Of a DNA stretch of 64,000 bases, positions 23,327 through 54,231 are shown piece after piece (the stretch's first letter is position 1; each line of letters starts with the position of its first letter). The stretch is taken from contig NZ_CP073748.1 of NCBI RefSeq assembly GCF_024398035.1, forward strand, positions 2,393,520 to 2,457,519, written 5' to 3'. The notes beneath the pieces are model-generated. The model was given only the letters and a program-made list of their open reading frames with translations. It searched no databases and was not told where the DNA came from. Both the position numbers and the translations under genes were made by a program. This stretch comes from Kordiimonas sp. SCSIO 12603. Its GTDB lineage: Bacteria; Pseudomonadota; Alphaproteobacteria; Sphingomonadales; Kordiimonadaceae.

Positions 23327-24315
23327 CTCATGTTCTCCCGGGTTTTATAAACGATAAACAGGAATGCTGGTGCCCCAACAAGCGCCATAACCACGCCGAT
23401 ATGAAGCGGGGCGCCGGGTGTTGGTACTCTTGTTAAAATATCCGCAAAGGTAAGCAGCAGCGCGCCCATTAAAGCGCTTGGCAGCAATAAAGGCCCCGGT
23501 TCATTGCATATAAGGCCACGCACCATGTGCGGCACAATAAGCCCTACGAACCCGATACTGCCGCATACGGCAACTGCCGCCCCCACACTGATAGCCGAGC
23601 CAACAACGATACGGAGTTTAAGCTGCTTTATATTCACCCCCATAGTCTTCGCCGTGTCTTCACCGACACTGAGAGCATTCAGCCCTTGTCCTACATTCAA
23701 CATCAACAGCCAACCAAAACCGATAAACGGCAGCGCAAACCAGAGATCAGATACTGTTCTGTTTTCAAGTGAACCAAGCATCCACATAATCATATCTCTA
23801 ACACTGATCGGACTTTCTGAAAGGTTCATCACAAGTGAGATAAGAGCCGTCGCAAGCGAGCTAATACCAAGCCCTACAAGAATGAGCATAAGAACACTGG
23901 CATCTCGCGCTGATATGAAAAGTAGGATTGCTGTTGCAACAAGTGCGCCCGCCATAGCGAAGAATGAGATCATAAGCGGAAAGCTGATGATAAAACCCAA
24001 GTGAATAGCAAGCACAGCGCCAAAAGCTGCACTGGCCGTTACTCCAATAACACCGGGATCAGCGAGAGGGTTTCGCAGCATTCCCTGAAGGGCTGCACCT
24101 GAAAGGCCAAGGGCAGCGCCAACGACAGCCCCCAAAATCACACGCGGCAACCGAAGTTCACGCACAATAATGGAAACAGGATTGTCTTTACCACCGGTAA
24201 GCCCCTGCCACACATCCGCAAGGGACATATCAACCCGTCCGAATATAAGCGAGAACAGCATTACCCCAAGTAACAGCAGCCCAAGAAAAACATTATCTCT
24301 CAGATATCTATTCAT
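23323..24315 (-). CDS. btuC: Vitamin B12 ABC transporter permease
   Basis: This FecCD-family permease has about ten hydrophobic segments in 330 residues. Family landmarks are RLPRVILGAVVGAALGLSGAALQGMLRNPLADPGVIGV near the N-terminus, GEDTAKTMGVN (the loop touching the ATPase) and GFVGLIVPHMVR, with the late TRVPTPGAPLHIGVVMALVGAPAFL. It would form the BtuC dimer in the inner membrane. It overlaps btuF by 8 bp and btuD by 4 bp. Confidence 0.93.
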   Translation of the reverse strand: MNRYLRDNVFLGLLLLGVMLFSLIFGRVDMSLADVWQGLTGGKDNPVSIIVRELRLPRVILGAVVGAALGLSGAALQGMLRNPLADPGVIGVTASAAFGAVLAIHLGFIISFPLMISFFAMAGALVATAILLFISARDASVLMLILVGLGISSLATALISLVMNLSESPISVRDMIMWMLGSLENRTVSDLWFALPFIGFGWLLMLNVGQGLNALSVGEDTAKTMGVNIKQLKLRIVVGSAISVGAAVAVCGSIGFVGLIVPHMVRGLICNEPGPLLLPSALMGALLLTFADILTRVPTPGAPLHIGVVMALVGAPAFLFIVYKTRENMR

Positions 24316-25195
24316 CGGCCGTATCTTTCTTTTTCAGGATACCAAATTCACCGGCTTTGGCGCGGATAGCCTCCGCGGCATCAGCGAGAAACAAGCCATT
24401 GCAAGCCAGATAACTTCCGGGCAGGTGAACGGTTGGGATCTGGTCCATCATCTCAAGCAACCTATCATGCCGGCTGAGGCTCCAATTGCTTTGATTGTCC
24501 ATATTGGTATCGAAGAAGCTGGTCACAAACATATCTGGCGGGTCCATAATCAGGTCTTCAAGCGGAAGTAACAACCAACCCTGATACCCTTTTGAAGCAG
24601 CATAAGAACGAAAGCCTGCCAGTTCGATGATGCCGTCCACAAACGTACCAACACCTGAAGTGAACCCGCTTGGAGTGACATAGGCAATCTTGAGAGAGGA
24701 TTTCATTTCCAACTTCAAAGCCTGTAACCGGGCTTCGAACGTCTGTGCCATTATTTCAGACTGCGCTTCACGGCCTATGGCTTTTCCAATGGTACGAACA
24801 TTCTGAAGTACAATTTCAGGTGCACTGCCAAATCGCGTTTTAAGAAGCTCAAATCCTGTACGTTCCGCCATTTCAGGCATACGCGCCGCGACTGTATAGC
24901 TTTGAATGGCAATATCTGGCTGGAGAGCAATAACTTCAGCAATCGAGCTTTCTGTATAGGGTAACCCCGCAGCCCGTGCCCGGTAGAAAGAATATTTTTC
25001 CCGAGCCCCTTTTGATACCGCTTTAATCTGCGAACGATCAGCGAGAGCAAGAATATATTGATCCGCACAGTAATCGAGCGAAACCACTGATGGCAGCGGT
25101 TGAGTTTCAGCATCATCCGCTGCTTGAGACGGTGCTGCCACCATCTCAAATAGTGTTGCTAGCAAAAGACCAGATAATAACTTTCTTAGAGCCAT
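24308..25195 (-). CDS. btuF: Vitamin B12-binding periplasmic protein
   Basis: This class III substrate-binding protein delivers corrinoid to BtuCD. The signal peptide ends near PSQAADDA. It then shows VVSLDYCADQYILALADRSQI, the helical-hinge architecture and the TESSIAEVIALQPDIAIQ segment typical of the PBP_2 helical-backbone class. The 295-residue length is slightly longer than E. coli BtuF. It begins 18 bp after btuB, so outer-membrane and periplasmic steps share a transcript. A siderophore-binding role is the alternative. Confidence 0.9.
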   Translation of the reverse strand: MALRKLLSGLLLATLFEMVAAPSQAADDAETQPLPSVVSLDYCADQYILALADRSQIKAVSKGAREKYSFYRARAAGLPYTESSIAEVIALQPDIAIQSYTVAARMPEMAERTGFELLKTRFGSAPEIVLQNVRTIGKAIGREAQSEIMAQTFEARLQALKLEMKSSLKIAYVTPSGFTSGVGTFVDGIIELAGFRSYAASKGYQGWLLLPLEDLIMDPPDMFVTSFFDTNMDNQSNWSLSRHDRLLEMMDQIPTVHLPGSYLACNGLFLADAAEAIRAKAGEFGILKKKDTADE

Positions 25196-25212
25196 TACCT
25201 TGCTCCCGTTTG

Positions 25213-27075
25213 CTAGAGATTAACCCTTAGGCCAACATAGGCTGAACGATCAGGTGTACCGTATCCAATGATAGACTGATATTCTTCGTCAAACAGGTTA
25301 TCGATACGGCCGTATACACTCACACGGTCATTGATCTGGAAGCTTGCGCGCAGATCAAGGCGTGTCCAGGCTTCTAGCGTTTCAGCACCAAATGACTGTT
25401 CTTCTTCACCGTTATGAACAAGTGTTGCCCGCAGATTAACCGCCTCAACAGGTGCCCAGTTTACTGTGGCAGAGAACTGGTTTTCCGGTTGACGCTCAAT
25501 TGCAATATCAGTCGCCGTATCAACTGCATCTGTATATGTGTAATTAGCACTTACATCCAGCGTATCGCTTAGGATTGCCTGCAGACCTAGCTCAAGGCCT
25601 TCTGAACGACGAGAATCCACATTGGCGTAACCATTTGTGAAAGTGAAATCGATTGCATCACGGGTTTTCAGGTTAAACCATGTTGCAGAAAGAAGGAGAT
25701 CACCTTCAAGGAAAGTTTGCTCAACGCCAAATTCATAACCTTTAGCGCGCTCTGGGCGGAGATCTGAACTTGGCTCTGTAAGGCCACAGAAAGTACAAAC
25801 AAATGTCAGCTGGAACACACTTGGTGCTTTAAAGCCTTCACCCCAGTTTGCAATAAGGCGTGTTGTATCTGTTACCTGATATGACCCTGTAAAACGTGTT
25901 GTTGTGGCACCACCGAATGTCTCGTGATCATCCTGACGAATACCGGCTGTCAGAACCAGTCCATCCACAGGTGTCCAGCCCAATTCACCAAACACGCTAT
26001 CAATGGAAATACCATCACCTTCAAGGTTTGTAGCTTTAGCAACTTCATGCTGAGCACCGAAGGTTACTGTCCAGTCTTCTGTTGCTTCAAATACACCAAG
26101 ATAGTCAAAATTAGTACGGTTACCTTGCGCTTCGAAGCTGGAAGCGCCATTTGTAAAATTCTCTCGCTCAATTGAAGAAAACTCTGCAGATACAGTATTC
26201 TGTAAGCGTCCATCGAACAGGTTAAAGTGCGCACGACCGGCAATCAAAAACTCATCTGTATGAGCAACTTCATCACCATCAATTGGTCCAAAACTATCAA
26301 ATTCACTGGCATTATCAGAATAACGCGAGATCACTTCAAAACGAAGGTCCTCGGAAATTTCGCTGGTTACCTTACCTGAGATATTATAGCTGCGCAGGCC
26401 ATCACGCTCGGTGTTACCGTCATTTTCATCAGCTGCAGAAATACCATCTGTATCTGTGAAGCTGGCTGCCAGATTAAAACCAAGTTTCTTCGTGCCGCCG
26501 TGCAGCGTGCCGCCAGTACGGAATGTGTTATAAGAGCCGTATTCAGCATACGCGTTGCCACCAAGGCCGTCACCACCAGTTTTCGTGATGATATTCACTA
26601 CACCACCGATAGCGTCTGAACCATATAGTACAGATTGTGGGCCGCGCAGTACTTCGATACGTTCGATATTATTTGTATCAAGATGAGCGAAATTATAGCC
26701 GTTGCCCGTAGATGAAGCATCATTCAACTGCACACCATCAATAAGTACAGCCGTACTATCACCACCAGCACCGCGCAAAGAAAGGGATGCCAGGCCACCA
26801 AAAGAACCATTTTGGGCGATATTTACGCTCGGTAGCACCTCAAGGGCATCCACAACAAAAATGTTCTGGCCCTTTTGCAGGTCGATATCGGTCAGAACGG
26901 AAACACTGCTACCAATTTGTGAAAGTGGCTGCTCGCGGCGGTTTACAGTTACATAAATTGTTTCAATGTCATCTGCTGCTTCGTCTTGTGCAAGGGTTGG
27001 TGCAGAATAAAAACCACCAGCAAGAAGCGCTGTGATGCATACAGAATTTTTAAGATGTTGCATGGCAAAATCCAT
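25213..27075 (-). CDS. btuB: TonB-dependent vitamin B12 receptor
   Basis: This is an outer-membrane gated beta-barrel. A signal peptide ends at APTLAQDE; the TonB-box-like segment ETIYVTV follows. The plug domain has SVLTDIDLQKG, LSLRGAGGDSTAVLIDGVQLND and IERIEVLRGPQSVLYGSDAIGGVVNIIT. The barrel ends with the usual aromatic/hydrophobic strand AYVGLRVNL. A CxxC pair (CTFC) sits in one predicted surface loop near residue 430. Start: the ATG at 27075 lies 8 nt after GGAGG, while the in-frame ATG at 27063 has no ribosome site. The riboswitch directly upstream supports cobalamin as the ligand. Confidence 0.94.
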   Translation of the reverse strand: MDFAMQHLKNSVCITALLAGGFYSAPTLAQDEAADDIETIYVTVNRREQPLSQIGSSVSVLTDIDLQKGQNIFVVDALEVLPSVNIAQNGSFGGLASLSLRGAGGDSTAVLIDGVQLNDASSTGNGYNFAHLDTNNIERIEVLRGPQSVLYGSDAIGGVVNIITKTGGDGLGGNAYAEYGSYNTFRTGGTLHGGTKKLGFNLAASFTDTDGISAADENDGNTERDGLRSYNISGKVTSEISEDLRFEVISRYSDNASEFDSFGPIDGDEVAHTDEFLIAGRAHFNLFDGRLQNTVSAEFSSIERENFTNGASSFEAQGNRTNFDYLGVFEATEDWTVTFGAQHEVAKATNLEGDGISIDSVFGELGWTPVDGLVLTAGIRQDDHETFGGATTTRFTGSYQVTDTTRLIANWGEGFKAPSVFQLTFVCTFCGLTEPSSDLRPERAKGYEFGVEQTFLEGDLLLSATWFNLKTRDAIDFTFTNGYANVDSRRSEGLELGLQAILSDTLDVSANYTYTDAVDTATDIAIERQPENQFSATVNWAPVEAVNLRATLVHNGEEEQSFGAETLEAWTRLDLRASFQINDRVSVYGRIDNLFDEEYQSIIGYGTPDRSAYVGLRVNL

Positions 27076-27082
27076 CAAGCTT

Positions 27083-31504: not shown

Positions 31505-32863
31505 TCAGTTTAATTTCAGGCGGTCCATGTCGGTGTAATTCGTATATGGTGATGTAACCACGCGCTCACCTTCCTCAAGACCCTCAAGAACTTCTATAAA
31601 TCGGCTGTTGCGCCGTCCAAGCTTCACAGATCTTTTCACAGCCACTGCACCATCACTGGTAACGACGAACACCCAATTTCCACCTGTATCCTGATAAAAA
31701 GCCCCGTTCGGTATCAACAAGCCTATAGTTGCCTCGCCCAGCATTAGACGGGTTTGCAGGCTTTGCCCGCGGCGAATACCTTCGGCTTGTTCATCAGCGA
31801 AGGTCATATCAACTTCAAACTGACCATTATTTACCTGGGGATATATTTTCGAAATCTGTAGGTTATAAGATACCCCATCTCGGTCAAATTCTACTCTTTG
31901 ACCGATATCCACACGGCCCAAGTAAAATTCATCAATATGTGCAACTAGTTTGTATCTAGACGGATCATCGATTTGTCCGAGACGTCCACCACGACTGATG
32001 CTTTGGCCAACTTCAATATCAAAGCCGGAAATTTTGCCCGAAACCGGTGCTTTTATACTTAAAGCTTCAAGGTTTTGATGCGCAAACTTCAGGTTTCTTT
32101 CAAGTTGTTCTGCTCTTGATTTTAAGTAACTCAACTGCTGTTCCTGAATACGTGCATCTGTGGCTTGACTTTCAAGGGTCAGCTTTCTTCTTTCAATATT
32201 GTAAGCCAACTCATCTTGCGTATTTTCCAACTGACTTGATGAAACGGCACTGGTTTTAATTAGCTTTCCCTCTCGCACCGCCTGACGTGTTAATTTGAGT
32301 ATTTGGTAGTCAAACTCAGCGAGATTTCTTTTGTGGGACAGTCTGTTTTGTGCAAGCTGGAGTTCGATGGTTCTCAAGTTATTGAGCTGTTCTGTTACCA
32401 ATGCTTCATTACCCATTACCTGCAGCTGTAAACTAGTATTAGATAATTCAGCTATCAGGGCGCCTTTTTCAACAACTGCGCCATCTTCAACAAGAACACG
32501 TTCCACCCTGCCGCCTTCTATAGCATCTAGAAAAACTGTCTTTAACGGAGTTACACGAGCACGAACGGGTATAACGTCTTCAAATACACCTTGCTTTACT
32601 TCCGAAATTATTACCTGATGTCGCTCAAGTTTTATTGATTTACCTGAGGTGATACTTTCCTGTGCCACCCAATAACCGCCCAGCAATAAAACAGCGCCTA
32701 AAACGGCATAAGTATATCGGTTTGATTTCTTTTTTTCGCTTACGGCCCGATCCATCCCCTGACCGGAAACAGAGGTATTGGGCGCCTTATTTACTATAGT
32801 CTCGCTGTCGTTCTCGAGCCCGGTTGCCATATTTTCTATTCTCATTATTTTTGGTCTCGCCAT
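31505..32863 (-). CDS. HlyD/RND-type periplasmic adaptor subunit
   Basis: This is a membrane-fusion protein. A membrane anchor (YAVLGAVLLLGGYWVA) is followed by a half barrel-sandwich domain (VRARVTPLKTVFLDAIEGGRVERVLVEDG), a long coiled-coil hairpin (about residues 120-230) rich in Gln and Leu, the second half (LEALSIKAPVSGKISGFDIEVGQ) and a beta-barrel with membrane-proximal domain. It would link the ABC permease to an outer-membrane channel. The start is uncertain: ATGs at 32863, 32845 and 32830 all lie downstream of the predicted sigma-54 transcription start near 32875, which rules out longer versions. None has a strong ribosome site. Confidence 0.88.
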   Translation of the reverse strand: MARPKIMRIENMATGLENDSETIVNKAPNTSVSGQGMDRAVSEKKKSNRYTYAVLGAVLLLGGYWVAQESITSGKSIKLERHQVIISEVKQGVFEDVIPVRARVTPLKTVFLDAIEGGRVERVLVEDGAVVEKGALIAELSNTSLQLQVMGNEALVTEQLNNLRTIELQLAQNRLSHKRNLAEFDYQILKLTRQAVREGKLIKTSAVSSSQLENTQDELAYNIERRKLTLESQATDARIQEQQLSYLKSRAEQLERNLKFAHQNLEALSIKAPVSGKISGFDIEVGQSISRGGRLGQIDDPSRYKLVAHIDEFYLGRVDIGQRVEFDRDGVSYNLQISKIYPQVNNGQFEVDMTFADEQAEGIRRGQSLQTRLMLGEATIGLLIPNGAFYQDTGGNWVFVVTSDGAVAVKRSVKLGRRNSRFIEVLEGLEEGERVVTSPYTNYTDMDRLKLN

Positions 32864-32885
32864 TTGATTTTGCACTAGATAATCA

Positions 32886-32900
32886 GCAAAGCGCGTGCCA
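32886..32900 (-). promoter_or_regulatory. Sigma-54 promoter of the export operon
   Basis: On the minus strand the sequence reads TGGCACGCGCTTTGC, an exact match to the -24/-12 consensus (TGGCAC, five bases, TTGC). Transcription would start about 12 nt on, near 32875, just before the adaptor gene. The nearby NtrC-family activator supports it. Confidence 0.88.
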
Positions 32901-32962
32901 GAAATTAACTCCTTGATTTTAATGGGCTTTATAGTTTTTCCTTGCAAAAAACAACATTTAAC

Positions 32963-33000
32963 TGTTCGATATCGTACACCTAAGTGTTCGATATCGGGCA
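32963..33000. promoter_or_regulatory. Twin palindromic activator sites
   Basis: TGTTCGATATCGTACA (32963-32978) and TGTTCGATATCGGGCA (32985-33000) are two copies of an imperfect palindrome with the shared core TGTTCGATATCG. They are spaced 22 bp apart (two helical turns), 63-100 bp upstream of the sigma-54 -24 box and 27-64 bp before the activator gene. They probably bind the activator at 33027 cooperatively and may also govern its own expression. Confidence 0.75.
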
Positions 33001-33026
33001 TCAATTCAAAAACATGTGGAACGGCT

Positions 33027-34415
33027 ATGAGCAGTAAAATACTAATTGTTGATGATGATGAAGATATTCTGATAGCTGGTAGGCTGCTGTTGAAAAGACA
33101 TTTTGATAAAGTAGTTACCACTAACGTTCCAAGCCAGATACCAACGTTGCTGGCCAGCCAAACTTTTGATGCCATTCTTCTTGATATGAATTTTAGCCCG
33201 GGCTTATCAGATGGAAATCAGGGCTTTCATTGCTTGGAAGAAATACTGAATATCGACCCAGATGCAGTGGTTATATTAATAACCGCACACGGCGACGTAG
33301 ATATGGCAGTTGAAGCCATGAAACGTGGTGCCACCGATTTCATCACTAAGCCCTGGCAAAACCAAAAGGTAATTGCAACTCTATCAGCTGCCGTAAAGCT
33401 AAAAAAAAGCCGCAATGAAACCAGCCACCTGAAACAAGTGAATGCAGCTCTTAATAACGTCAAAAATAAAAGCGATAGTCCTATACTAGGTGACAGTGCA
33501 ACAACTCAAAATATGTTGTCACTTATCGCCCGCGCGGCCCCTACAGATGCGAATGTACTAATTCTCGGGGAAAACGGTACAGGTAAAGAGTTAGCTGCCC
33601 AGAAAATTCATAGCAGTTCACTTAGAAACGATAAGGTTTTCATATCAGTAGATATGGGTACAATCCCCGAGAACTTGTTTGAATCAGAACTCTTCGGGCA
33701 TAAAAAGGGCGCTTTCACTGGCGCAAACGAAAACAAGATAGGTTTTTTTGAAGCCGCAAATGGAGGCACGATTTTTCTTGATGAAATAGGTAATGTTCCA
33801 TTGCACCTTCAGTCAAAGTTATTAACTGCGCTGGAAAAACGTGTGATTACTCCAGTGGGGGGCACCAAAGAAAAAGATATAGATGTTCGGGTTATAGCAG
33901 CAACAAACCTTCCCAAGATGGAACTTCTTGACGAAAGAAAATTTCGGCAAGACCTCCTATTTCGTCTAAATACAGTGGAAATTATTGTCCCACCCTTAAG
34001 AGAAAGACCAAGCGATATACCCGCTATTGCAGCGTTTTATGCTGATTTTTACGCGAAAAAATATAACTTCCAGCCGAAGTCTTTTTCAGAAAAAGCTTTA
34101 AAAGCTATTAAAGCAGCGCCTTGGCCCGGAAATGTTAGGGCTTTGCGGCATTCAATCGAACGGGCTGTTATTCTTTCCGATAGTACAGAGTTTCAAGCAA
34201 CTGACTTTCAATTGAGTACTGAAGGGCAAGTTTTTGAGCATGCGCATGCTGTAGAAAATAATCAGCAGAGAGAAACTCTAAACCTCGAAGAATTGGAAAA
34301 GAAGGCAATTACTCTAGCTTTGAAAAGACAGCGCTACAATATAAGCCATGCAGCGAAAGAGCTAGGTCTTACGCGTGCGGCGCTATATAGAAGGATGGAA
34401 AAACATGGCCTATAG
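33027..34415 (+). CDS. NtrC-family sigma-54-dependent response regulator
   Basis: This 462-residue activator has a receiver domain (DDDED at residues 9-13, phospho-acceptor Asp about 53 in AILLDMNF, Lys in FITKPW), an AAA+ domain with Walker A LGENGTGKELAA, the sigma-54 contact loop GAFTGA and GGTIFLDEIGNVP, and a Fis-type helix-turn-helix (YNISHAAKELGLTRAALYRRM). After LLDMNF it has an insert (SPGLSDGNQGFHCL) that I associate with regulators of ABC exporters. The ATG at 33027 excludes the upstream operator region that the frame also covers. It should activate the divergent export operon. It overlaps the kinase gene by 11 bp. Confidence 0.94.
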   Translation: MSSKILIVDDDEDILIAGRLLLKRHFDKVVTTNVPSQIPTLLASQTFDAILLDMNFSPGLSDGNQGFHCLEEILNIDPDAVVILITAHGDVDMAVEAMKRGATDFITKPWQNQKVIATLSAAVKLKKSRNETSHLKQVNAALNNVKNKSDSPILGDSATTQNMLSLIARAAPTDANVLILGENGTGKELAAQKIHSSSLRNDKVFISVDMGTIPENLFESELFGHKKGAFTGANENKIGFFEAANGGTIFLDEIGNVPLHLQSKLLTALEKRVITPVGGTKEKDIDVRVIAATNLPKMELLDERKFRQDLLFRLNTVEIIVPPLRERPSDIPAIAAFYADFYAKKYNFQPKSFSEKALKAIKAAPWPGNVRALRHSIERAVILSDSTEFQATDFQLSTEGQVFEHAHAVENNQQRETLNLEELEKKAITLALKRQRYNISHAAKELGLTRAALYRRMEKHGL

Positions 34416-35757
34416 TAATTTCACTATACATCTTGGCATAAGATTAACGCTTGTTTTTATTTCTTTCTCTGTATTCGCTTTTCTAATTCACACCCCAGGC
34501 TATCACGCAACGACACTCCTTTTACTGCTCATATCAATAGGACTTACATATAATCTTTGGCATCTTATTACGCTTACGAACCGTGAACTCGCTCGTTTCC
34601 TAACGGCGATACATCATCAAGATTTCAACCAACGTTTCGATTTAAAGGGATATCGAAGTAGCTTTGATGATCTAACAAAGTCATTTTCCATAATACTCAA
34701 CAAATTTAAAGAGTTACAGTCAAATCAAGAGGCAACACTTAAACATCATAAAGCTCTCATTGAACATGTTCCCTTCCCTCTAATTTCGCTCCATGAAAAT
34801 GATAGAGTGACATTTTGGAACCTTGCTGCGAGGAAGCTTTTCAGAAATATCCATCTATCAAGCATTTCCGACCTCAAACAGTTTGGGCAGGATGTTTATA
34901 CGGAAATACTCTCTTTAAAAACGGGGCAGAAAAAGCTCATTCGTTTCAATATAGACGGGACAGATCAGCATTTTATGATTGCCGCTACCAAAATCATAAT
35001 TGGAGGCAACAGCGAACGACTTCTAAGCCTTCAGAATATTCAGAATGAACTTGAAACAGCTCAATTACAAGCTTGGCAGGATTTAGTCCGCGTCCTGACC
35101 CACGAGATTATGAACTCCATTACTCCTGTAGCGTCTCTCGCTAATACCGCCAATGATTTGATGGAAGACCTCAAAGGAAAACCTGGATTACCGAATGAAT
35201 TTACAGAAAGCCTAACAGATATCGGAGATGCTGTACAAACTGTTGCGAGGCGGTCCGAAGGACTAACAGAATTCGTTGGCAGCTACAGACAGCTTACCCG
35301 CTTACCTCCACCACAGAAAACCAAGTTCTCTGTAACAGAATTATTCCAGTCTATTGAGAAACTCGCAGTTCAATCTTGGAACAATAAAGATATCCGGTTT
35401 GAATCTCACGTTAGCCAGCAAAATCTTGAACTATTTGCAGACAGGAAAATGATTGAACAAACATTGCTTAATATGATGCAGAACTCCGAACATGCAGTTG
35501 CCGGGAGAAAAAAAGGCCATATCAGTTTGAAAGCCTATATCAACTCAAGGAATAGTATCGTTATAGAACTCGCAGATAATGGCACGGGAATAGATGCAGA
35601 GACAGCACCCAAAATATTTATACCCTTTTATACCACCAAACGGACAGGTAGCGGCGTTGGCCTTGCTTTAGCACGACAAATTATGATCGCCCATCGCGGC
35701 TCTATATCACACTCAGATGCCGAAAATGGGGGCAGTGTTTTTACACTTACATTCTAA
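34405..35757 (+). CDS. NtrY-like sensor histidine kinase
   Basis: The 450-residue protein has two N-terminal membrane helices (about residues 9-27 and 30-50) with almost no periplasmic loop, so it probably senses a signal in or near the membrane. A HAMP-like linker, a PAS-like region (LIEHVPFPLISLHENDRVTFWN) and a HisKA region follow, with the phospho-His in VLTHEIMNSITPVASLANT. The HATPase domain shows NMMQNSEHA (N box), ELADNGTGID (G1) and RTGSGVGLALARQIM (G2). It is translated from an ATG inside the regulator's 3' end and is the obvious partner of that regulator. Confidence 0.93.
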   Translation: MAYSNFTIHLGIRLTLVFISFSVFAFLIHTPGYHATTLLLLLISIGLTYNLWHLITLTNRELARFLTAIHHQDFNQRFDLKGYRSSFDDLTKSFSIILNKFKELQSNQEATLKHHKALIEHVPFPLISLHENDRVTFWNLAARKLFRNIHLSSISDLKQFGQDVYTEILSLKTGQKKLIRFNIDGTDQHFMIAATKIIIGGNSERLLSLQNIQNELETAQLQAWQDLVRVLTHEIMNSITPVASLANTANDLMEDLKGKPGLPNEFTESLTDIGDAVQTVARRSEGLTEFVGSYRQLTRLPPPQKTKFSVTELFQSIEKLAVQSWNNKDIRFESHVSQQNLELFADRKMIEQTLLNMMQNSEHAVAGRKKGHISLKAYINSRNSIVIELADNGTGIDAETAPKIFIPFYTTKRTGSGVGLALARQIMIAHRGSISHSDAENGGSVFTLTF

Positions 35758-35801: not shown

Positions 35802-36578
35802 TTAGAGGGTAATTAGAAACGTCACTTTACTGTTCATACCACCTGTACCAACAATATTTTCCCCAGGCGTGAGTTTAATCTCTACTTGTTTCCCAAATTT
35901 GCTGGCAATTTCACCATTAACCACGGTGCCGTGTTTCGTTCCTAAGTCTCGAACCCAAACTTCCTTGCCGTGTTTCACAAACTCAAAATGTTGAGGTTCG
36001 AGGTCTGGCGCACTGGGTAATGGAAACATCAGGCTTTGAGCAGATTCTCTTGCCATTTCACCTGGTGCTCGAGAATTTCCGATAAAAAACGGAAAGTTTA
36101 GTATGCGAACAGGCGCAACCAACTTTTCCAAGACCAGCGGTGTCACACCTTCTACAACAGGGTCACCTGTTTGCATGGCTGTTTTAGGCTTCTTCTTGTA
36201 AACAGCTTTAATCTCGGAGTTTTGTATCAACTCACGTTCAGGTACATACCTATCCCGAAGTCTTTTAGCCATCGCTGTTACAACATGCTTCGCAAGAGGA
36301 TCTGAGAATGTGCGTCTGAAAGTATCACCTGGGATAATCAGCAGTCTGGCATCGGTATGCGCTCTAACAGTAGTGGAACGAACATCATTCTGAAGCACCC
36401 CAGCTTCACCAAACAACGATCCAGCTTCAAGGGTACCTAATTCATAAAAGGCGCCGTCTTTTGATCGCAATATATCAATTTTACCTTCAAGGATAAGATA
36501 AGCGCAGTCACTTTCTGCGCCCTCTTCATAGATGGTTTCGCCCGCTTTAAAGAGCTGTTCTTCACCATTATTTTCCAT
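35802..36578 (-). CDS. Cyclic nucleotide-binding domain plus FHA domain protein
   Basis: The N-terminal half is a cNMP-binding (CRP-like) beta-roll: LFKAGETIYEEGAESDCAYLILEG, then LFGEAGVLQNDVRSTTVRA, the phosphate-binding-cassette region. The C-terminal quarter is an FHA-like fold (HFEFVKHGKEVWVRDLGTKHGTVVNGE) that would bind phosphothreonine or an equivalent. There is no DNA-binding domain, so it is an adaptor and not a CRP regulator. The ATG at 36578 has AAAGG about 7 nt upstream; an ATG at 36611 has none. The TerB-like gene lies 65 bp upstream in the same direction. Function unknown beyond signal integration. Confidence 0.85.
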   Translation of the reverse strand: MENNGEEQLFKAGETIYEEGAESDCAYLILEGKIDILRSKDGAFYELGTLEAGSLFGEAGVLQNDVRSTTVRAHTDARLLIIPGDTFRRTFSDPLAKHVVTAMAKRLRDRYVPERELIQNSEIKAVYKKKPKTAMQTGDPVVEGVTPLVLEKLVAPVRILNFPFFIGNSRAPGEMARESAQSLMFPLPSAPDLEPQHFEFVKHGKEVWVRDLGTKHGTVVNGEIASKFGKQVEIKLTPGENIVGTGGMNSKVTFLITL

Positions 36579-36643
36579 TTGCCGACCTTTAACTGAAAAC
36601 TTTAGCAGCATCCTAATATATTAGATGACAAGGTATAAACAAA

Positions 36644-37099
36644 TCATTGAGAGCAATGCGTTATCTGCTCAACTTCATGCTTAATTCGTATTCGTTCTTG
36701 GGCGGAAACCCCAAGTAATCCAGCAATTTTAGCAATAATGTTTAATTCAAAGTTATCAAGATGCCCATCCGCAAAAGCTACTTGCCAAAGAAGTCTGATA
36801 ATTTCCTGTCTTTCCTCATTATCAAGTTCTTTACTCACAGCTCTGGTAAATTGGTATAGGCTAGGCGCATCACTTTCATCTTCCAGAGCTAAGTCGGCGA
36901 TATAAACGGCACTGTCTTTGGTTAATGAGAAATGATTCTGCAGATTTTTGATTAAAACTTCCCGTTCTTCGTCAGTGTAATTTTCATCACTTTTAGACAC
37001 GCTTACCATTAAAGCTGCTGTGGCCAAATGAAGTTCTGAAACCTCTTTTGAAGCTGTATCTGGCTTCAGCCCTAAAACTTGGGAAATTTTATCAAACAT
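36644..37099 (-). CDS. TerB-like domain protein
   Basis: This 151-residue, all-helical acidic protein resembles the TerB/DUF533-type fold (COG4103-like). It has a core helix HLATAALMVSVSKSDENYTDEERE, where the Asp/Glu cluster can bind metal, and a second repeat WQVAFADGHLDNFELNIIAKIAGLLGV. Members occur with tellurite-resistance or stress modules but also alone. GGAG lies ahead of the ATG at 37099. It is followed by the cNMP/FHA gene; both may work in one signalling pathway. No other ter genes are present, so tellurite resistance is not implied. Confidence 0.8.
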   Translation of the reverse strand: MFDKISQVLGLKPDTASKEVSELHLATAALMVSVSKSDENYTDEEREVLIKNLQNHFSLTKDSAVYIADLALEDESDAPSLYQFTRAVSKELDNEERQEIIRLLWQVAFADGHLDNFELNIIAKIAGLLGVSAQERIRIKHEVEQITHCSQ

Positions 37100-37241
37100 A
37101 TTATTCTCCAAACTAATCAAGTACATATCTAAGAGAAATTATAGCAAAATAAAGCACTATAAGACGTGTTGATATATTCTAGTGGACAAACTGTTATCGC
37201 TAGCTTCGACCAGAGCTTATCTGCCGGCATAAAGTGCTCAT

Positions 37242-46888: not shown

Positions 46889-48277
46889 CTATTCACCAGC
46901 ATTTCGGCCGTTACTCGTCAGGCCAAGTGACTTCAATTTTCTATGGAGCGCTGAACGTTCCATCCCGATGAATTCTGCTGTCTTAGAAATATTCCCACTG
47001 AAACGATTAATTTGAATTTTGAGATATTCCCTTTCAAAACTCTCTCTCGCTTCCCTAAGAGGTGTGGTCATAATGGCGTTGTCGGTACTAGAGTGCAATA
47101 AATCATTTGAATTAGTACGAATTTCCGGTGGCAGGTCTTTGCTACAGATTTCGGAACCGCCGTCTTCTGGGCCCATAATCAGTACGCGTTCAATAATGTT
47201 TTTGAGCTGCCGCACATTTCCCGGCCAATCATAATTCTGCAAAGAAGCAAGCGCATCATCAGACAACGTGACAGAGGCTCGACCTGTTGCAGCGGCCAGC
47301 GTTTCAAGGAAATTCTGTGCGAGCATGGGAATATCTTCACGCCGCTCAGCCAAAGACGCCATTGAAAGCGGCACAACATTCAAACGGTGATAAAGATCTT
47401 CTCGAAAACGCCCTTCTTCGATCTCAACCAGCAGGTTTTTACTGGTAGCAGAAATAACACGAACATCGACCTTTACACGTGAGTTACCGCCAACGCGTTC
47501 AAAAGCCTGATCTGTTAATACACGTAATATCTTGGCCTGTGTCGGGAGCGGCATATCTCCCACTTCATCTATAAAGAGCGTACCACCATGGGCACGTTCA
47601 AATAGACCTGTTTTCACAACACCACCATTTTGCTCAACACCGAAAAGCTCTTGTTCCATCCGGTGAGGTTCCATAGATGCAGCACTTACTACTACAAAGG
47701 ATGAACGTGAGCGATGCGACCTTTCATGAATTTGTCGTGCAGCTACCTCTTTACCAGCGCCTGATGGCCCCTGAATCAAAATACGGCTATTCGTTGCTGC
47801 TACTTTCTCAATGTTTTGACGTAAACTGTTGATGGCCTGCGAACGACCAATGATATCTACTGAAAAGCCTGTTTTCTTCTTTAGTTCTTCATTTTCACGG
47901 CGAAGACGTTCTGCCTCAGTCGCGCGAGCAACCGTTAGCAATAAATGCTCAGATTCAAAGGGCTTTTCAATAAAATCATAAGCTCCCTTCTTAATCGCAG
48001 CTACGGCCGTTTCAATATTACCATGCCCTGAGATTACAATGATCGGAAGATCACGGTGCCGACTTTTAACAAGTTCAAGAATTTCAAGCCCATCGAGCTT
48101 ACTGCCCTGAAGCCAAATATCCAAAATTAACAATGAAGGTAAACGCGCCTCTATCTGTGTAAGCGCACTGTCACTATCGTGTGCGGTACGGGCTGCATAG
48201 CCCTCATCCTCAAGAATGCCCGCGATTAGCTCACGAATATCAGCTTCATCATCAACGATTAGAATATCAAGGGCCAT
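46889..48277 (-). CDS. ntrX: Nitrogen assimilation response regulator NtrX
   Basis: NtrX is the partner of NtrY. It has a receiver domain ([10 protein letters not shown], phospho-acceptor Asp in [19 protein letters not shown]), an AAA+ domain with Walker [16 protein letters not shown] and FIDEVGDMP, and a Fis-type helix-turn-helix ([21 protein letters not shown]). Where sigma-54 activators carry GAFTGA, it reads [20 protein letters not shown]. The contact loop is missing, as in known alphaproteobacterial NtrX, so it most likely works with sigma-70 promoters. It is 28 bp from ntrY. Confidence 0.95.
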
Positions 48278-48305
48278 TTAGGCTCCCTCCCAACTTTACT
48301 ATTCA

Positions 48306-50615
48306 TCAAACAGCCGTAGCCGCCTTCTCTAATTGCTCAACGCGCTTTTCCAAAGCCTTATGCGAGAAGTACAAAGTTACGCTTGCCCCTCCCTCACCGC
48401 GATCAGCGATCCTCACGTTACCGCCATGCTCTTCCATGATCCTACGCACAATTGCCAGACCAAGGCCTGTTCCTTTTGCTCTGGTTGTCACATAGGGTTC
48501 CATTAAGCGATCTTTCTGCTCAACTGGAAGCCCCAGACCATTATCCTGCACGGTAATAACAGTTCGTTCATCATCCTGTTGTAATTCCAAAGATACTTTA
48601 CCGGGAATAACTTCTTCTCCTGAGGCAGCTTGTTTATCCATGCGTGCTTCTACAGATTCAGATGCATTTTTCAAAATATTAGTAAGAGCTTGACCAACCA
48701 AACGGCCATCACAAATAAGCTCATTAAGCTCTTCATTGAGATTGTGGTGAAAGTTAATATCAACGTTCGCTACATCCTGTAGGAAAACAGCATGTTTTAT
48801 AACGTCCCTAATATTAGTCTCTTTGAGAAGCGGTGCTGGCATTCTAGCGAAGGAACTGAATTCATCCACCATGCGGCGCAGATCACCTACCTGCCTGATA
48901 ATCGTATCTGTACACTGACTAAAAACAGCCGTATCGGAAGCAATTTCCTTCAAGTACTTACGCTTTAGACGTTCTGCTGACAGTTGAATAGGCGTGAGCG
49001 GGTTTTTAATCTCATGGGCAATACGTCTCGCCACATCAGCCCAGGCGGCTGTTCTTTGGTTTGCCAGCTGCTCCGTCACATCGTCAAAAGTGGTGACAAA
49101 ACCACTAATTTCACCATCATCTGAACGTTCAGCGGAGACACGGGTAAGAAGAGTACATATCTCTCCATTTCTTTCTAGCTGAATTTCGCCCTTGGCTTCA
49201 TTCCCGTTCGCATCCTTTGCTTGTTCAAGAATATCTTTAAATTCAGGGATAATAACTTCCAGTTTTTGACCGATCATTTCTTCAACGGTAGATCCAAGAA
49301 GTCCCGCAGCTGATCGGTTAGGTAGAAACACTGTGTGATCCTTCTGAAGCCCGATAACCCCGGCAGATACGCCCTCCAGTACTTCTTCAAGAAAACGCCT
49401 GCGCTCATCAAGTTCTGAGTTAGCTGCGATAAGGTCTTTTTGGTTCTTAGCTAATTGATCTGTCATCCGGTTAAATGCACGGCTCAGCATACCAACTTCA
49501 TCACTTGTTGGAACACTGGGCACACGCGCCGCAAAATCACCTTTACCAACTCGTTCCGACGCATCCACCAAATTGGAGAGTGGCGTTACAAGGCGGCTGG
49601 AGAACCAAAGACCAATCCAGATAGCGGCCAACAAAATAAGAAGCGCTATAATAATAAAAACCAAATTGAACTGTAACTGGAAGTCACTTCGTTGGTTTTC
49701 CAGTGTTTCATAGTCATTTACTGCGCTCTGCGTGGCTTCCAAATATGTCAAGACATTAGGACTTAGATCGCGCGATACATATAGATAAGTGGGCCGAAAG
49801 AAAGATGATAGCCGGATTAATCCTATCACTCGGTTATTCTCAACATCCGTAACCACAATAGCGCCGCCGTCACGAGCATGCTCAATTACCGCAGTGTCCA
49901 AAAAATCATCTGATAACCCTAGGCCAGCAGTTGCTCGTGCTAACACGTTAGCTTCACCATCAAACACGATTAGCTCGCTAAGCAATCGAGTATTAAGGGC
50001 ATCATCTGCCACCCTTTGCAGCCCTATGAGATCCTGCTTCTGTAAGGGAGAGATATTATTGTAAGCTCGGGCAATTTGGAGCATGTCTTTTTCAACATCA
50101 GCCCTGTGCTCAATCATATACGTTTGTGCAACTTCAAGGGAATTGGTGAGAGTATTTCTAATTTTGTCGCTAAACCAAGACTGCAGTCCAAACTCCAGAA
50201 ATAATGCTGAGAAAACCGTCATAATGATTGGTGGAACGACGGCGATACCAATAAAGAAACCCGTAAGTTTGTTATGAAGCCTCGAGCCGGCAGCCATTCC
50301 CTTGCGAGACCACCATATCCTGATAACCCAACGGCTTATTGATACAGCCAGCGCTAGCAACAGCGCCAAATTAACGCCGAGTAACACCCGCATGGTACGT
50401 CCGGTAGCCACTTCAAACGGAGCGCCCTTTTGGGACATTGCGATGTATGTTGCTATTGCTGAAGTAACCGCAAGGAAAGCGATAACAATCTCAATCCTTC
50501 CAGCTAATTTTAGACGTCTTGCCCAAAGAACGAACTTTGCCCAATTTCGGTTAGGCAATTTAGGATGCGTAGCAATGATGCCATCAACATTATCTGGTTT
50601 GGTTGTTTCCGTCAT
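48306..50615 (-). CDS. ntrY: Sensor histidine kinase NtrY
   Basis: The 769-residue kinase has three to four N-terminal membrane helices, a periplasmic region (about residues 150-310), another helix (FIIIALLILLAAIWIGLWF), HAMP, a PAS domain (LEGVSAGVIGLQKDHTVFLPN), HisKA with the phospho-His in RRIAHEIKNPLTPIQLSAERL, and HATPase with N box ILKNASESV and G2 TRAKGTGLGLAIVRRIM. It responds to nitrogen or redox state in related bacteria and phosphorylates NtrX. The 66-bp gap after ntrC has no clear terminator, so one long ntr operon is possible. Confidence 0.95.
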   Translation of the reverse strand: MTETTKPDNVDGIIATHPKLPNRNWAKFVLWARRLKLAGRIEIVIAFLAVTSAIATYIAMSQKGAPFEVATGRTMRVLLGVNLALLLALAVSISRWVIRIWWSRKGMAAGSRLHNKLTGFFIGIAVVPPIIMTVFSALFLEFGLQSWFSDKIRNTLTNSLEVAQTYMIEHRADVEKDMLQIARAYNNISPLQKQDLIGLQRVADDALNTRLLSELIVFDGEANVLARATAGLGLSDDFLDTAVIEHARDGGAIVVTDVENNRVIGLIRLSSFFRPTYLYVSRDLSPNVLTYLEATQSAVNDYETLENQRSDFQLQFNLVFIIIALLILLAAIWIGLWFSSRLVTPLSNLVDASERVGKGDFAARVPSVPTSDEVGMLSRAFNRMTDQLAKNQKDLIAANSELDERRRFLEEVLEGVSAGVIGLQKDHTVFLPNRSAAGLLGSTVEEMIGQKLEVIIPEFKDILEQAKDANGNEAKGEIQLERNGEICTLLTRVSAERSDDGEISGFVTTFDDVTEQLANQRTAAWADVARRIAHEIKNPLTPIQLSAERLKRKYLKEIASDTAVFSQCTDTIIRQVGDLRRMVDEFSSFARMPAPLLKETNIRDVIKHAVFLQDVANVDINFHHNLNEELNELICDGRLVGQALTNILKNASESVEARMDKQAASGEEVIPGKVSLELQQDDERTVITVQDNGLGLPVEQKDRLMEPYVTTRAKGTGLGLAIVRRIMEEHGGNVRIADRGEGGASVTLYFSHKALEKRVEQLEKAATAV

Positions 50616-50681
50616 AACTAGCCATGATGCATATTTGTCACGGTTGTACCAGAGATATCACATATTATTTTAATGTTTTTT

Positions 50682-52139
50682 TTAACGTTGGCTTTTTGGA
50701 GAGATGACAATATCCAACTCTTTGATTTTTTTACGTAGAGTATTTCGGTTCAAACCCAATAAATCTGCGGCTTTCAATTGGTTACCATTGGTAACAGACA
50801 ACACCTTTTGAATAAGAGGTCGTTCTACTTCTCTAAGGATGCGCTGGTAAATTCCTGGGGACGGCAAGCCATCATCATGATAATCAAAATACTGATCTAG
50901 GTGTAGGCGAACCGTTTGAGATAGATTCCCTCCAGTTACATCCGCCATGATACTTATTGGTCCGCCGGATAAATCAGAGACTGATCTGTCAAACTCCTCT
51001 TTCACCATATTTCCAGTGATTTCATTCCCAGGATATAGTGCACAAACCCTATTAACCATGTTCTCTAATTCTCGAACATTCCCAGGCCAATCAAAGGATT
51101 GTAGTATTTTTTTAGCCCCGGAAGATAAAGCCTTTTTGGGAAGGCCATTCTCTACGGCTTTTTTTAAGAAATGTTCCGCGAGATCGGGGATATCGTCAGT
51201 TCTTTCACGTAAAGAAGGGATATTTAACGGCACAACATTCAGCCGGAAGTATAAATCCTCTCGAAAATCACCAGATCGCACCATTTCTCGAAGGTTTTTG
51301 TTGGTTGCCGCAATAATACGAACATTAGTTTTAATCGTGGAAGTTCCTCCAACTGTCCTGTATTCGCCTTCTTGAAGCACCCTTAAAAGCCGTGTTTGTG
51401 CTTCGAGAGGCATATCACCTATTTCATCTAGAAATAAGGTTCCGCCTTTAGCTTGCCCAAATCGGCCTAAGGTTCTCGTTTCGGCACCCGTGAATGCACC
51501 ACGTTCATGTCCGAAAAGTTCACTCTCAATGAGTTCTTTCGGAATAGCTGCCATATTCACAGCAACAAAAGGATTTTCTTTTCGCTTACTGTGCGTATGA
51601 ATAGCCCTTGCAACCAATTCTTTACCGGTTCCGCTTTCTCCAATAATCAGTACAGTGAGTTCAGTCTGAACAACACGTGCCATAGCACGGTAAATTTCCT
51701 GCATAGCCGCAGAACGGCCAATTAGCAGACTTTCTTCTTGCTCATAATCAGCTTCACTTAAATTAATATTGTTTTTAAGTGCTTTCTTAGCAATAGAGAC
51801 TAACTCATCGATATCAAAGGGCTTTGGTAGATAATCAAAAGCTCCTTTATCAGATGCAGCCATAGCTGTAGATAGTGTATTTTGGGCACTCATAATAACA
51901 AACGGTAGCTCAGGTCGGACTTCGTTAAGCTCCGCCATACATTCAATGCCATTACCACCTGGCATCATCACATCGGACAGAACCAGATCACCCATTCCGC
52001 TTCTAACTAATCTATCAAGTTCCGCAACATCTTCGGCTTCAACCACAAGCCAACCTTCTTGGCGCAGCGCCTCCCCCACTACAAGGCGTATAGTCAGGTC
52101 GTCATCAGCAACGATGATAGTTGGTTTATTCCGTGTCAT
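50682..52139 (-). CDS. ntrC: Nitrogen regulation response regulator NtrC
   Basis: NtrC is the sigma-54 activator of nitrogen-assimilation genes. It has a receiver domain (VADDDLTIR, Asp in [24 protein letters not shown]), AAA+ with Walker [17 protein letters not shown], intact GAFTGA in [14 protein letters not shown], and Walker [10 protein letters not shown]. It ends in a Fis-type helix-turn-helix ([22 protein letters not shown]) that is nearly diagnostic for NtrC. The 485 residues fit. The start overlaps ntrB by 4 bp. Confidence 0.97.
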
Positions 52140-53245
52140 ACTTTTTTATCCTCATCGAGTGCTAATTGCACCTTAAAGACCGCACCGCCCTTGGGGTGGT
52201 TATCGAAGGTGACTGTCCCTCCCATTTCGCTGATGTAGCGTGCTACTAATGCAAGTCCCAAGCCTGAACCACCCTCTTTACCGCTTACAAACGGATCAAA
52301 CAGATAATTCTTTAGATTCTCCGGAATACCCGGGCCATTGTCATGGATAGATATCTCTATAGGTAATCTCTTTCGAGAGCCGTCAGCTTCTCTAATCCAG
52401 ATTCCATGTTGATAACGTGTAGTTACTGTGATCTTCGCTGTGTCTCCCGCTGCTTCCACAGCATTTTTTACTAGATTTAAAAACACCTGAATCAAACGAT
52501 CATAATTGCCATAAACATCTGGGAGTGAAGGGTCAAATTTCGGTTCAAACTCAGCTTTCTCGCCAAAACCAGCAGCAGCTACATTAAGTACATGATCCAG
52601 TACTTCATGAATATTTACTGCTTCATTTTCCTGCGCGGTTGGCGTGCTAAAGGTCTCTAACTCGTCAACGAGCGACTTTATCCGATCAACCTCTTTAACA
52701 ATCAATTCAGGAAGTCTGTCATCTCCTTCTTTGGAAGAACGAGCGATTAATTGGGCGGCCCCTCGAATACCGGATAAGGGGTTTTTAATTTCATGAGCTA
52801 ACATGGACGCTAAACCGCTAACAGAACGAGCCGCAGCTTCCATTTCCTCACGTTTTTCAAGATATGCTGTAATCCGCCGAGGCTGGGCTGTTATGAGTAT
52901 CTCGCCCTCTTCCCCATAGGGTGAGGCATGAAGATCCATAAGCTCTATGTCACCGATTGGTGGTCCGCAAGCCACATCATAACTATTCAGAGGTGTCACT
53001 TCTTGTCGGGATCTATCTACAAGTTCTTCCACCTGAAGACCAATACTACGAAGTGCCCGGATAGATTGGCCGATTAACACTTCTTCACTCTGCTGAAAAA
53101 TAGCTTCGGTGTGCGAATATATTTGTGTAATTATATTATCAGCTGAAATGAGCAATGTTGCCTGATGTAGGCTGTTCAGAACGGCTTCTGGTGCACCAAG
53201 TTCACCAGAAGGTACTGTTTCCAAACTTCCCCCACCTGATTTCAT
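52136..53245 (-). CDS. ntrB: Nitrogen regulation histidine kinase NtrB
   Basis: This soluble kinase/phosphatase (GlnL) controls NtrC and is itself governed by PII. There is a PAS domain (about residues 25-140) and the phospho-His in SMLAHEIKNPLSGIRGAAQLI. HATPase motifs include NLVKNAVEAAG (N box) and SGKEGGSGLGLALVARYIS (G2). No membrane helix is present, as expected. The start overlaps the dusB stop by one base, the widely conserved dusB(nifR3)-ntrB-ntrC arrangement. Confidence 0.96.
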   Translation of the reverse strand: MKSGGGSLETVPSGELGAPEAVLNSLHQATLLISADNIITQIYSHTEAIFQQSEEVLIGQSIRALRSIGLQVEELVDRSRQEVTPLNSYDVACGPPIGDIELMDLHASPYGEEGEILITAQPRRITAYLEKREEMEAAARSVSGLASMLAHEIKNPLSGIRGAAQLIARSSKEGDDRLPELIVKEVDRIKSLVDELETFSTPTAQENEAVNIHEVLDHVLNVAAAGFGEKAEFEPKFDPSLPDVYGNYDRLIQVFLNLVKNAVEAAGDTAKITVTTRYQHGIWIREADGSRKRLPIEISIHDNGPGIPENLKNYLFDPFVSGKEGGSGLGLALVARYISEMGGTVTFDNHPKGGAVFKVQLALDEDKKV

Positions 53246-54231
53246 TAAGCAGCCATTTGTTCACACAGTGGTAGGAAATATTCCTTAAGAGACTTTTTAA
53301 CTTCTTCCGGATCGTCTACACGGTTTATGTAGTGTCGGAATTCTGCCGAGCCTGTAAGCCCTTTTGTATACCAGCCGAGGTGCTTACGCGCCATACGAAC
53401 AGCTGTAACAGTGCCGTAGTGATGAAGCATTTCTTCATAGTGGCTTAAAATTGCCTCTAGTTGCTCAGCTAGTGTTGGTTCCGCAATACGCTCACCAGTC
53501 TTAAGGTAATGAATTACCTGTGACGGGAACCAAGGTTTACCATATGTCCCGCGACCAATCATAACGCCATCTGCGCCTGATTGCTCAAGAGCATTATCTA
53601 CATCATCAAAGGTATTGATATCGCCGTTTACCACAAGAGGAATATCAACGGCGTCTTTAACAATTCCTACCTTCTTCCAGTCGGCATGCCCCTTATACAT
53701 TTGGCAGCGTGTCCTACCGTGTACAACGAGCATCTTGATCCCTGCTTCCTGAGCAATTTTTGCCAATTGGGGAGCATTAAAGCTATCATCATCCCAACCA
53801 AGTCGCATCTTGAGGGTTACTGGTAGTGATACTGCATTCACCGTAGCGTGAATAAGTTCACCTGCGTGATCAAGGTCGCGCATAAGCGCTGAACCAGAGT
53901 GGCCATTCACCACTTTTTTAACCGGGCAACCCATATTGATATCAATAAAAGCAGCGCCGCGGTCTTCATTAAGCTTGGCAGCTTCAGCCATTTTTGAAGC
54001 TTCACAACCCGCTAGCTGAACAGACATCGGGAATTCTTCAGCGCAGTTTGTTGCCATCTTCTGGCACTTCTCGCTTGCACGGATCATTGCCTCAGAAGCA
54101 ATCATTTCAGATACAACAAGACCAACGCCGTAACTTTTTACAAGTTTACGAAACGGCATATCTGATACACCACACATAGGTGCTAAAAATACTGGGTCTT
54201 TGATTTCTACTGGACCAATGTTAATAGCCAT
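53245..54231 (-). CDS. dusB: tRNA-dihydrouridine synthase
   Basis: This FMN enzyme (NifR3/DusB) reduces uridines in the tRNA D-loop. It has a TIM barrel with [12 protein letters not shown], the catalytic Cys in [36 protein letters not shown] and [13 protein letters not shown] in 328 residues. It is first in the ntr operon and diverges from ispDF with an 82-bp gap that should hold both promoters. Confidence 0.96.

Follow-up and report, generated by a model that had tools for sequence, protein, structure and literature searches.

A predicted sigma-54 promoter with tandem activator sites before an adaptor–ATPase–permease operon of Kordiimonas, and its counterparts before unlinked permease and peptide genes in relatives

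Which genes answer to a two-component system that stands divergent to an export operon, and what might that operon carry? The question is raised by a locus of Kordiimonas sp. SCSIO 12603, within a 64,000-nucleotide stretch of contig NZ_CP073748.1 (positions 2,393,520 to 2,457,519 of the forward strand; hereafter the window), where genes for an NtrC-family response regulator and a sensor kinase are read away from genes for a periplasmic adaptor, an ATP-binding cassette (ABC) ATPase and a duplicated permease (Table 1). To our knowledge, duplicated MacB/FtsX-type permeases that lack an ATPase of their own have no known partner. Comparison across the order strongly supports a predicted sigma-54-type promoter with tandem putative activator sites before the export operon, and equally the view that activator, kinase, sites and operon make up one conserved module. 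The comparison shows the anatomy of this predicted promoter and where it stands: before the operon and, in relatives, also before unlinked permease genes with no neighbouring ATPase and before a peptide gene.

A sequence-only reading of positions 31505..35757 had described a minus-strand adaptor–ATPase–permease operon, a plus-strand NtrC-type regulator and kinase, an exact −24/−12 element and two palindromes. The gene set is confirmed by domains throughout, but the span is too short; because the operon continues to 28247, the ATPase and permease fall outside it. The element, TGGCACGCGCTTTGC, is present before the HlyD–ATPase–permease operon (32886–32900, minus strand) and has GG at −24, GC at −12, fixed spacing and conservation in orthologues, as sigma-54 promoters do. 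Both palindromes are likewise where they had been placed: the two copies of TGTTCGATATCG, which has no other exact match in the window, begin 22 bp from each other, at 32963 and 32985, and lie 63–100 bp from the −24 end. The CGATATCG core was rejected as the operator, as its four central bases differ among relatives, and the conserved operator instead reads TGTnCr-n4-ygnACA.

For the comparison we used 99 genomes sampled from the order, in which a profile search for the regulator returned 50 matches in 49 genomes. The 30 best loci, the window itself included (L098), formed the training set for position matrices, and the 20 lower matches were held out. In every training locus the adaptor gene is divergent, the kinase lies behind the regulator, and the box, which reads TGG[CT]A[CT]-N5-TTGC, is accompanied by dyads, two in 8 loci and three in 22. 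These start mostly about 100, 79 and 55 bp before the box (range about 55–121 bp upstream) and are mostly 20–24 bp apart, or about two helical turns. The box with two dyads, our strict test, was passed by 16 of the 20 held-out loci, so that the search of other genomes proposed in the earlier reading, for the palindrome beside homologous operons, succeeded with the corrected form of the operator. Divergence of adaptor and regulator genes extends to 49 of the 50 loci, the window's own included. The exception, L146 in genome G027, is a second, weakly matching and diverged regulator–kinase pair near a permease–ATPase–HlyD set, all on the same strand and with the promoter absent. Beyond the order, a Pseudomonadales metagenome-assembled genome keeps the same promoter, and both the gene order and dyad-like sites are preserved in Marivirga and in Sphingobacterium, in the latter with other genes intervening. 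There, an outer-membrane efflux gene (TolC-type, OEP; L021:4571-5932) lies between the adaptor and regulator genes and is itself preceded by dyad-like sites. Family f8 (L127, L242) has an additional ABC ATPase gene after the kinase gene.

That box and palindromes are coincidental might be argued from the elements taken singly. The exact −24/−12 pattern has 12 matches in the whole genome and 11 in the reversed control, which is chance level; with up to one mismatch allowed, the window holds 6 matches where 5.4 are expected (not significant). A single loose dyad, TGTNCRNNNNYGNACA, gives 14 matches in the genome against 10 in the control, again not significant, and in 4 of 24 genomes it falls below its control. 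The exact box alone, or one loose dyad, was therefore rejected as evidence. The 16-bp dyad TGTNCGATATCGNNCA has no further exact match in the 3.85 Mb genome, and a box with a dyad at the correct distance occurs there once and never in the reversed control. Searches that started from the motif agree: for paired dyads, 51 matches fell at 29 distinct places, spread over 16 of the 20 genomes searched and comprising 15 main operons, 12 permeases and 2 peptide genes, with none in the control, and a strict box-plus-dyad pattern gave 40 matches that reduce to 31 distinct promoters across 18 genomes, 18 of them before main operons, 9 before permeases and 4 before peptide genes, with 0 reversed-control matches in each genome; the distinct places of both searches were counted by hand from the match tables. 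Conservation, near-fixed spacing and the zero controls for the combination make a chance origin extremely improbable. The strict pattern finds exactly one promoter in the window's genome, its own, and to that extent the system is self-contained, as had been claimed; for the system overall the term does not hold, since in relatives unlinked permease and peptide genes share the promoter.

This wider reach was apparent in two relatives, in which tandem dyads occur elsewhere in the genome, five pairs in total, each before a box and a permease gene without an adjacent ATPase. We assembled 61 unlinked permeases, defined as leading genes among the protein-search matches listed, with up to 10 candidates scored per genome, most of which were fetched. 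To be counted, a gene needed at least 300 bp of upstream sequence and a product of at least 700 aa, and could not lie behind another permease gene. The box with two dyads precedes 41 of these 61 listed matches, or 36 of 56 when the five that had been found by motif (L147–L151) are set aside. None of 1220 dinucleotide shuffles and none of 165 other open reading frames (ORFs) from the same regions passed. The two best dyads are 19–24 bp apart in 35 of the 41 promoter-bearing permeases and 31–33 bp apart in the other 6. For none of the 41 was an ATPase or adaptor gene found within 1.5 kb (phmmer with the window's proteins as queries, E 1e-15), the full flanks on both sides being covered for 34. 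The split between positives and negatives is clean because the negatives have no dyads at all, their best dyad score being 2.0 against a training minimum of 16.2. On a FastTree phylogeny of the permeases, 11 changes of promoter state are required, compared with 16.9 when labels are shuffled; promoter state is thus clustered on the tree, yet has repeatedly been gained or lost.

There are main operons that carry one adaptor gene and one ATPase gene followed by several permease genes, up to six (L273). Across the 99 genomes, and among the matches listed, regulator and permease occur together in 48 and are both absent from 48, while the regulator alone is found in one and the permease alone in two (Fisher p 1e-24, with genomes counted as independent of kinship); G042, the one genome with the regulator alone, has a completeness of 71%. 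A single further duplicated permease was found in the window's genome (L153, G000:C1:145137-147407; identity 24%, with a cut at E 1e-10), flanked by genes for an ABC exporter and a HlyD-type protein. It was rejected as a member of the regulon, having no dyad and no fitting box.

The same promoter arrangement points to a small peptide gene. In 5 of 27 genomes of the family, a box, two dyads and a short ORF share one syntenic position in front of an acyltransferase gene; there, the remaining 22 lack both the ORF and the dyads (best dyad score 3.6). The encoded peptides are 31–39 aa long with a net charge of +6 to +8. Their ORFs are preceded by a purine-rich ribosome-binding stretch and followed by a terminator-like hairpin and a T run. 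The C-terminal sequence is RR-x-RRY[KR] in four of the five peptides and RRRQRRNKTRR in that of G046; within the shared tail, arginine codons vary between species and the residues are constant. None of the five matches Pfam or PHROGs. The tail pattern matches in 5 of the 99 genomes, three of these matches being peptide genes (G061, G076 and G079); those in G066 and G009 were rejected as such after failing a protein-level scan of the loci examined. Short basic ORFs flagged in G018, G064 and G090 were judged by eye to be unrelated to the five peptides and lack dyads. The small arginine-tailed peptide is a candidate cargo in some species, with a signal or an unrelated co-regulated peptide as alternatives.

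The regulator has the receiver domain, the sigma-54 AAA+ domain with a GAFTGA-type loop and the Fis-type helix-turn-helix of the NtrC family, and the intact GAFTGA that had been read in it is present. Among 35 regulator loci, a set that includes two genomes twice (once per search), 20 have GAFTDA, 6 have GAFTGA and 9 were unmatched by the search string; the GAFTGA loop is not diagnostic for this group. Against TIGR02915 (PEP-CTERM response regulator) the window's regulator scores 372.2, below the cut-off of 502.6. The kinase, as had been noticed, has almost no periplasmic loop, its two transmembrane segments being joined by a very short one, and this loop is conserved in relatives, often with PGYHA. 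A membrane-borne signal had been proposed on these grounds; the shortness is conserved, yet a Pfam scan finds a weak PAS match (E up to 0.1) in 18 of 19 kinases, so that a cytoplasmic signal is just as possible.

NtrC-family regulators, once phosphorylated, oligomerize on tandem sites and activate the sigma-54 polymerase. In the explanation that we consider likely as a whole, the NtrC-type regulator would be phosphorylated by its kinase, bind the tandem TGTnCr-n4-ygnACA dyads upstream of the −24/−12 box and, together with the sigma-54 polymerase, turn on the adaptor–ATPase–permease operon, which would serve as a shared engine for the export of peptides or amphiphiles. Binding of the dyads and sigma-54 dependence of the promoter are what the conserved arrangement suggests. 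A single ATPase and adaptor would then power several interchangeable permeases, a shared engine that fits the co-occurrence table as well as the operons in which up to six permeases follow a single adaptor and ATPase. Its substrates would probably be small peptides or similar amphiphiles exported from the inner membrane, and the regulator may also control its own gene, since the dyads lie 27–64 bp before its start codon. A fuller version, which we find possible and rather doubtful, is peptide secretion by one engine with many permeases: one ATPase–adaptor pair would serve a changing set of unlinked duplicated permeases under one sigma-54 activator and operator, and the cargo in some species would be short peptides with an arginine-rich tail, typically ending in RR-x-RRYK. 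The short-loop kinase may in that case read the peptide or its passage, giving an autoinducing loop. The shared regulatory code, by tying the 41 of 61 listed permeases to one ATPase–adaptor operon, makes the question of their partner directly testable, and it supplies a concrete candidate cargo in the small peptide.

One may postulate alternative scenarios for the same genes. They could form a detoxification system, a defence pump against antimicrobial peptides or envelope stress like the Bce modules or MacAB, in which the short-loop kinase senses damage, the orphan permeases broaden the range of substrates and the peptide is not cargo; we would give this somewhat less than an even chance. The conserved short-loop kinase beside a MacB-type transporter resembles Bce modules as available descriptions present them, permease and ATPase match MacB, and the accessible text of PMC12316311 (PLoS One 2025) places such permeases under defence; the regulator, however, is not of the Bce type, and the product of a peptide gene that shares the promoter, as seen in 5 of 27 family genomes, is more naturally a cargo or a signal. 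Envelope maintenance, in which a lipid, lipoprotein or hydrophobic compound would be extracted from the inner membrane as by LolCDE or YbbAP and the promoter would answer to the state of the envelope, appears unlikely to us. Type VII relatives do extraction work of this kind according to the accessible part of PMC12646458, and the ATPase also matches the LolD and YbbA models, below their cut-offs, but the scattered distribution (present in 50 of the 99 genomes sampled, among the matches listed) speaks against essential housekeeping and the HlyD-type adaptor points to export via an outer-membrane channel. It could also be that orphan permeases share the promoter and not the engine, each pairing with another ATPase such as LolD or FtsE. 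The shared engine is a deduction from sequence, and the further ABC ATPase gene of family f8 counts in favour of this reading; the common promoter, the arrays of permeases behind one ATPase and the near-perfect co-occurrence argue against it, and we think it improbable, if still worth consideration.

Several observations count against the explanation that we prefer, a phosphorylated regulator acting at one conserved promoter on a shared export engine. The strict two-dyad pattern matches nothing in 4 of the 20 genomes searched, including the window's, which is missed because one half of its second site, TGTTCGATATCGGGCA, is degenerate. The strict box-plus-dyad pattern finds no second target promoter in the window's genome, which also lacks a peptide gene at the syntenic position and any match to the tail pattern. 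The presence of rpoN there is no more than suggested, by nine regulator matches, the window's own included, that span the sigma-54 activator domain. Among the held-out loci, L143 and L146 are without the promoter, L136 has one dyad and the second dyad of L128 is just below the cut, and two Bacteroidota relatives have no clean −24/−12 box by the filter used, despite their dyad-like sites. One of the 61 upstream regions of unlinked permeases passes on the reverse strand too. The other 20 of the 61 (L170, L184, L185, L187, L195 and 15 more) have no dyads at all, two of them coming from G082, which has a permease and no regulator; not every such permease therefore belongs.

How does the locus compare with known systems? 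The top curated models for the adaptor and ATPase are those of the darobactin exporter DarB–DarC–DarD (NCBIfam), and the permease matches DarB after ADOP, all below the cut-offs (DarC 236.6 of 450, DarD 263.2 of 375, DarB 126 of 700). By definition, a duplicated orphan permease of the ADOP type has no ABC ATPase gene beside it. The window's permease is, like ADOP (TIGR03434), a duplicated MacB_PCD/FtsX protein, and many of its relatives stand without an ATPase, but the window's copy has an adjacent ATPase gene and so falls outside the definition; its score of 312.4 and those of five unlinked relatives (253.8–307.5) lie below the cut-off of 622.3. In MacAB the ATPase is fused to the permease. 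A MacA-type adaptor and MacB-type permease domains are common to the window and MacAB-TolC, and the NCBIfam model of MacB covers both the ATPase and permease parts, whereas here the ATPase is a separate ORF and the permease is duplicated. Structure matches by sequence lead from the permease to MacB and from the adaptor to MexJ and MacA. The Bce modules of Firmicutes have an OmpR-type regulator. They combine, in the descriptions available, a kinase nearly without an extracellular loop with a MacB-like ABC transporter, as here; the window differs in its NtrC-type sigma-54 activator, weak-PAS kinase, duplicated permease and HlyD-type adaptor.

Sigma-54 promoters have been predicted before FtsX-type permeases (COG0577) in gamma-Proteobacteria, Opitutia and Bacteroidia by PMC12316311, which calls this the first evidence; its accessible text mentions neither a dedicated activator or operator nor a trans regulon that takes in unlinked permeases, and no peptide gene, and the host here is alphaproteobacterial. 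In the accessible text of Francke 2011 (PMC3162934), words beginning ABC, MacB, permease or efflux are absent. We found no earlier description of an activator and operator dedicated to such permeases, of control that extends to unlinked permeases or of the peptide gene in a literature search whose coverage mostly excluded subscription journals; as far as this literature goes, these three are new, and the first of them provides the recently predicted sigma-54 link of this transporter class with an activator and operator of its own.

Table 1. Features of the locus, in window coordinates.
Feature	Position	Strand	Basis or remark
Duplicated-type permease, 833 aa	28247..30748	−	two MacB_PCD and two FtsX stretches; PDB matches are MacB
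ABC ATPase, 226 aa	30783..31463	−	best models DarD, MacB, FtsE, LolD
HlyD/MacA-type periplasmic adaptor, 446 aa	31505..32845	−	domain and sequence matches
−24/−12 element TGGCACGCGCTTTGC	32886..32900	−	box TGG[CT]A[CT]-N5-TTGC in 30/30 best loci
Activator dyad 1, TGTTCGATATCGTACA	32963..32978		predicted site, sequence comparison
Activator dyad 2, TGTTCGATATCGGGCA, one half-site degenerate	32985..33000		predicted site, sequence comparison
NtrC-family response regulator, 462 aa	33027..34415	+	receiver, sigma-54 activation domain with GAFTGA, Fis-type helix-turn-helix
Sensor kinase, 450 aa	34405..35757	+	two transmembrane segments, very short loop, weak PAS match, HATPase_c

The start codon of the adaptor in Table 1 is our choice, a second in-frame ATG being present at 32863, and the start of the kinase gene (34405) overlaps the stop codon of the regulator gene. 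The regulator and its counterpart in Kordiimonas laminariae share 97% identity, in keeping with the alphaproteobacterial lineage of the host. A nitroreductase gene separates the export operon from an uptake locus downstream of it, in which a TonB-dependent receptor adjoins a periplasmic binding protein (24308-27078). Directly behind the kinase, on the opposite strand (35802-37126), a gene for a protein with cyclic-nucleotide-binding and FHA domains lies next to one for a TerB-like protein. Farther along the window, the minus strand of 46889-54231 encodes two more sigma-54 response regulators, an NtrY-type kinase, a further PAS-bearing kinase and a Dus protein, a cluster that looks like ntrX-ntrY-ntrC-ntrB-dus, with gene names assigned by inference.

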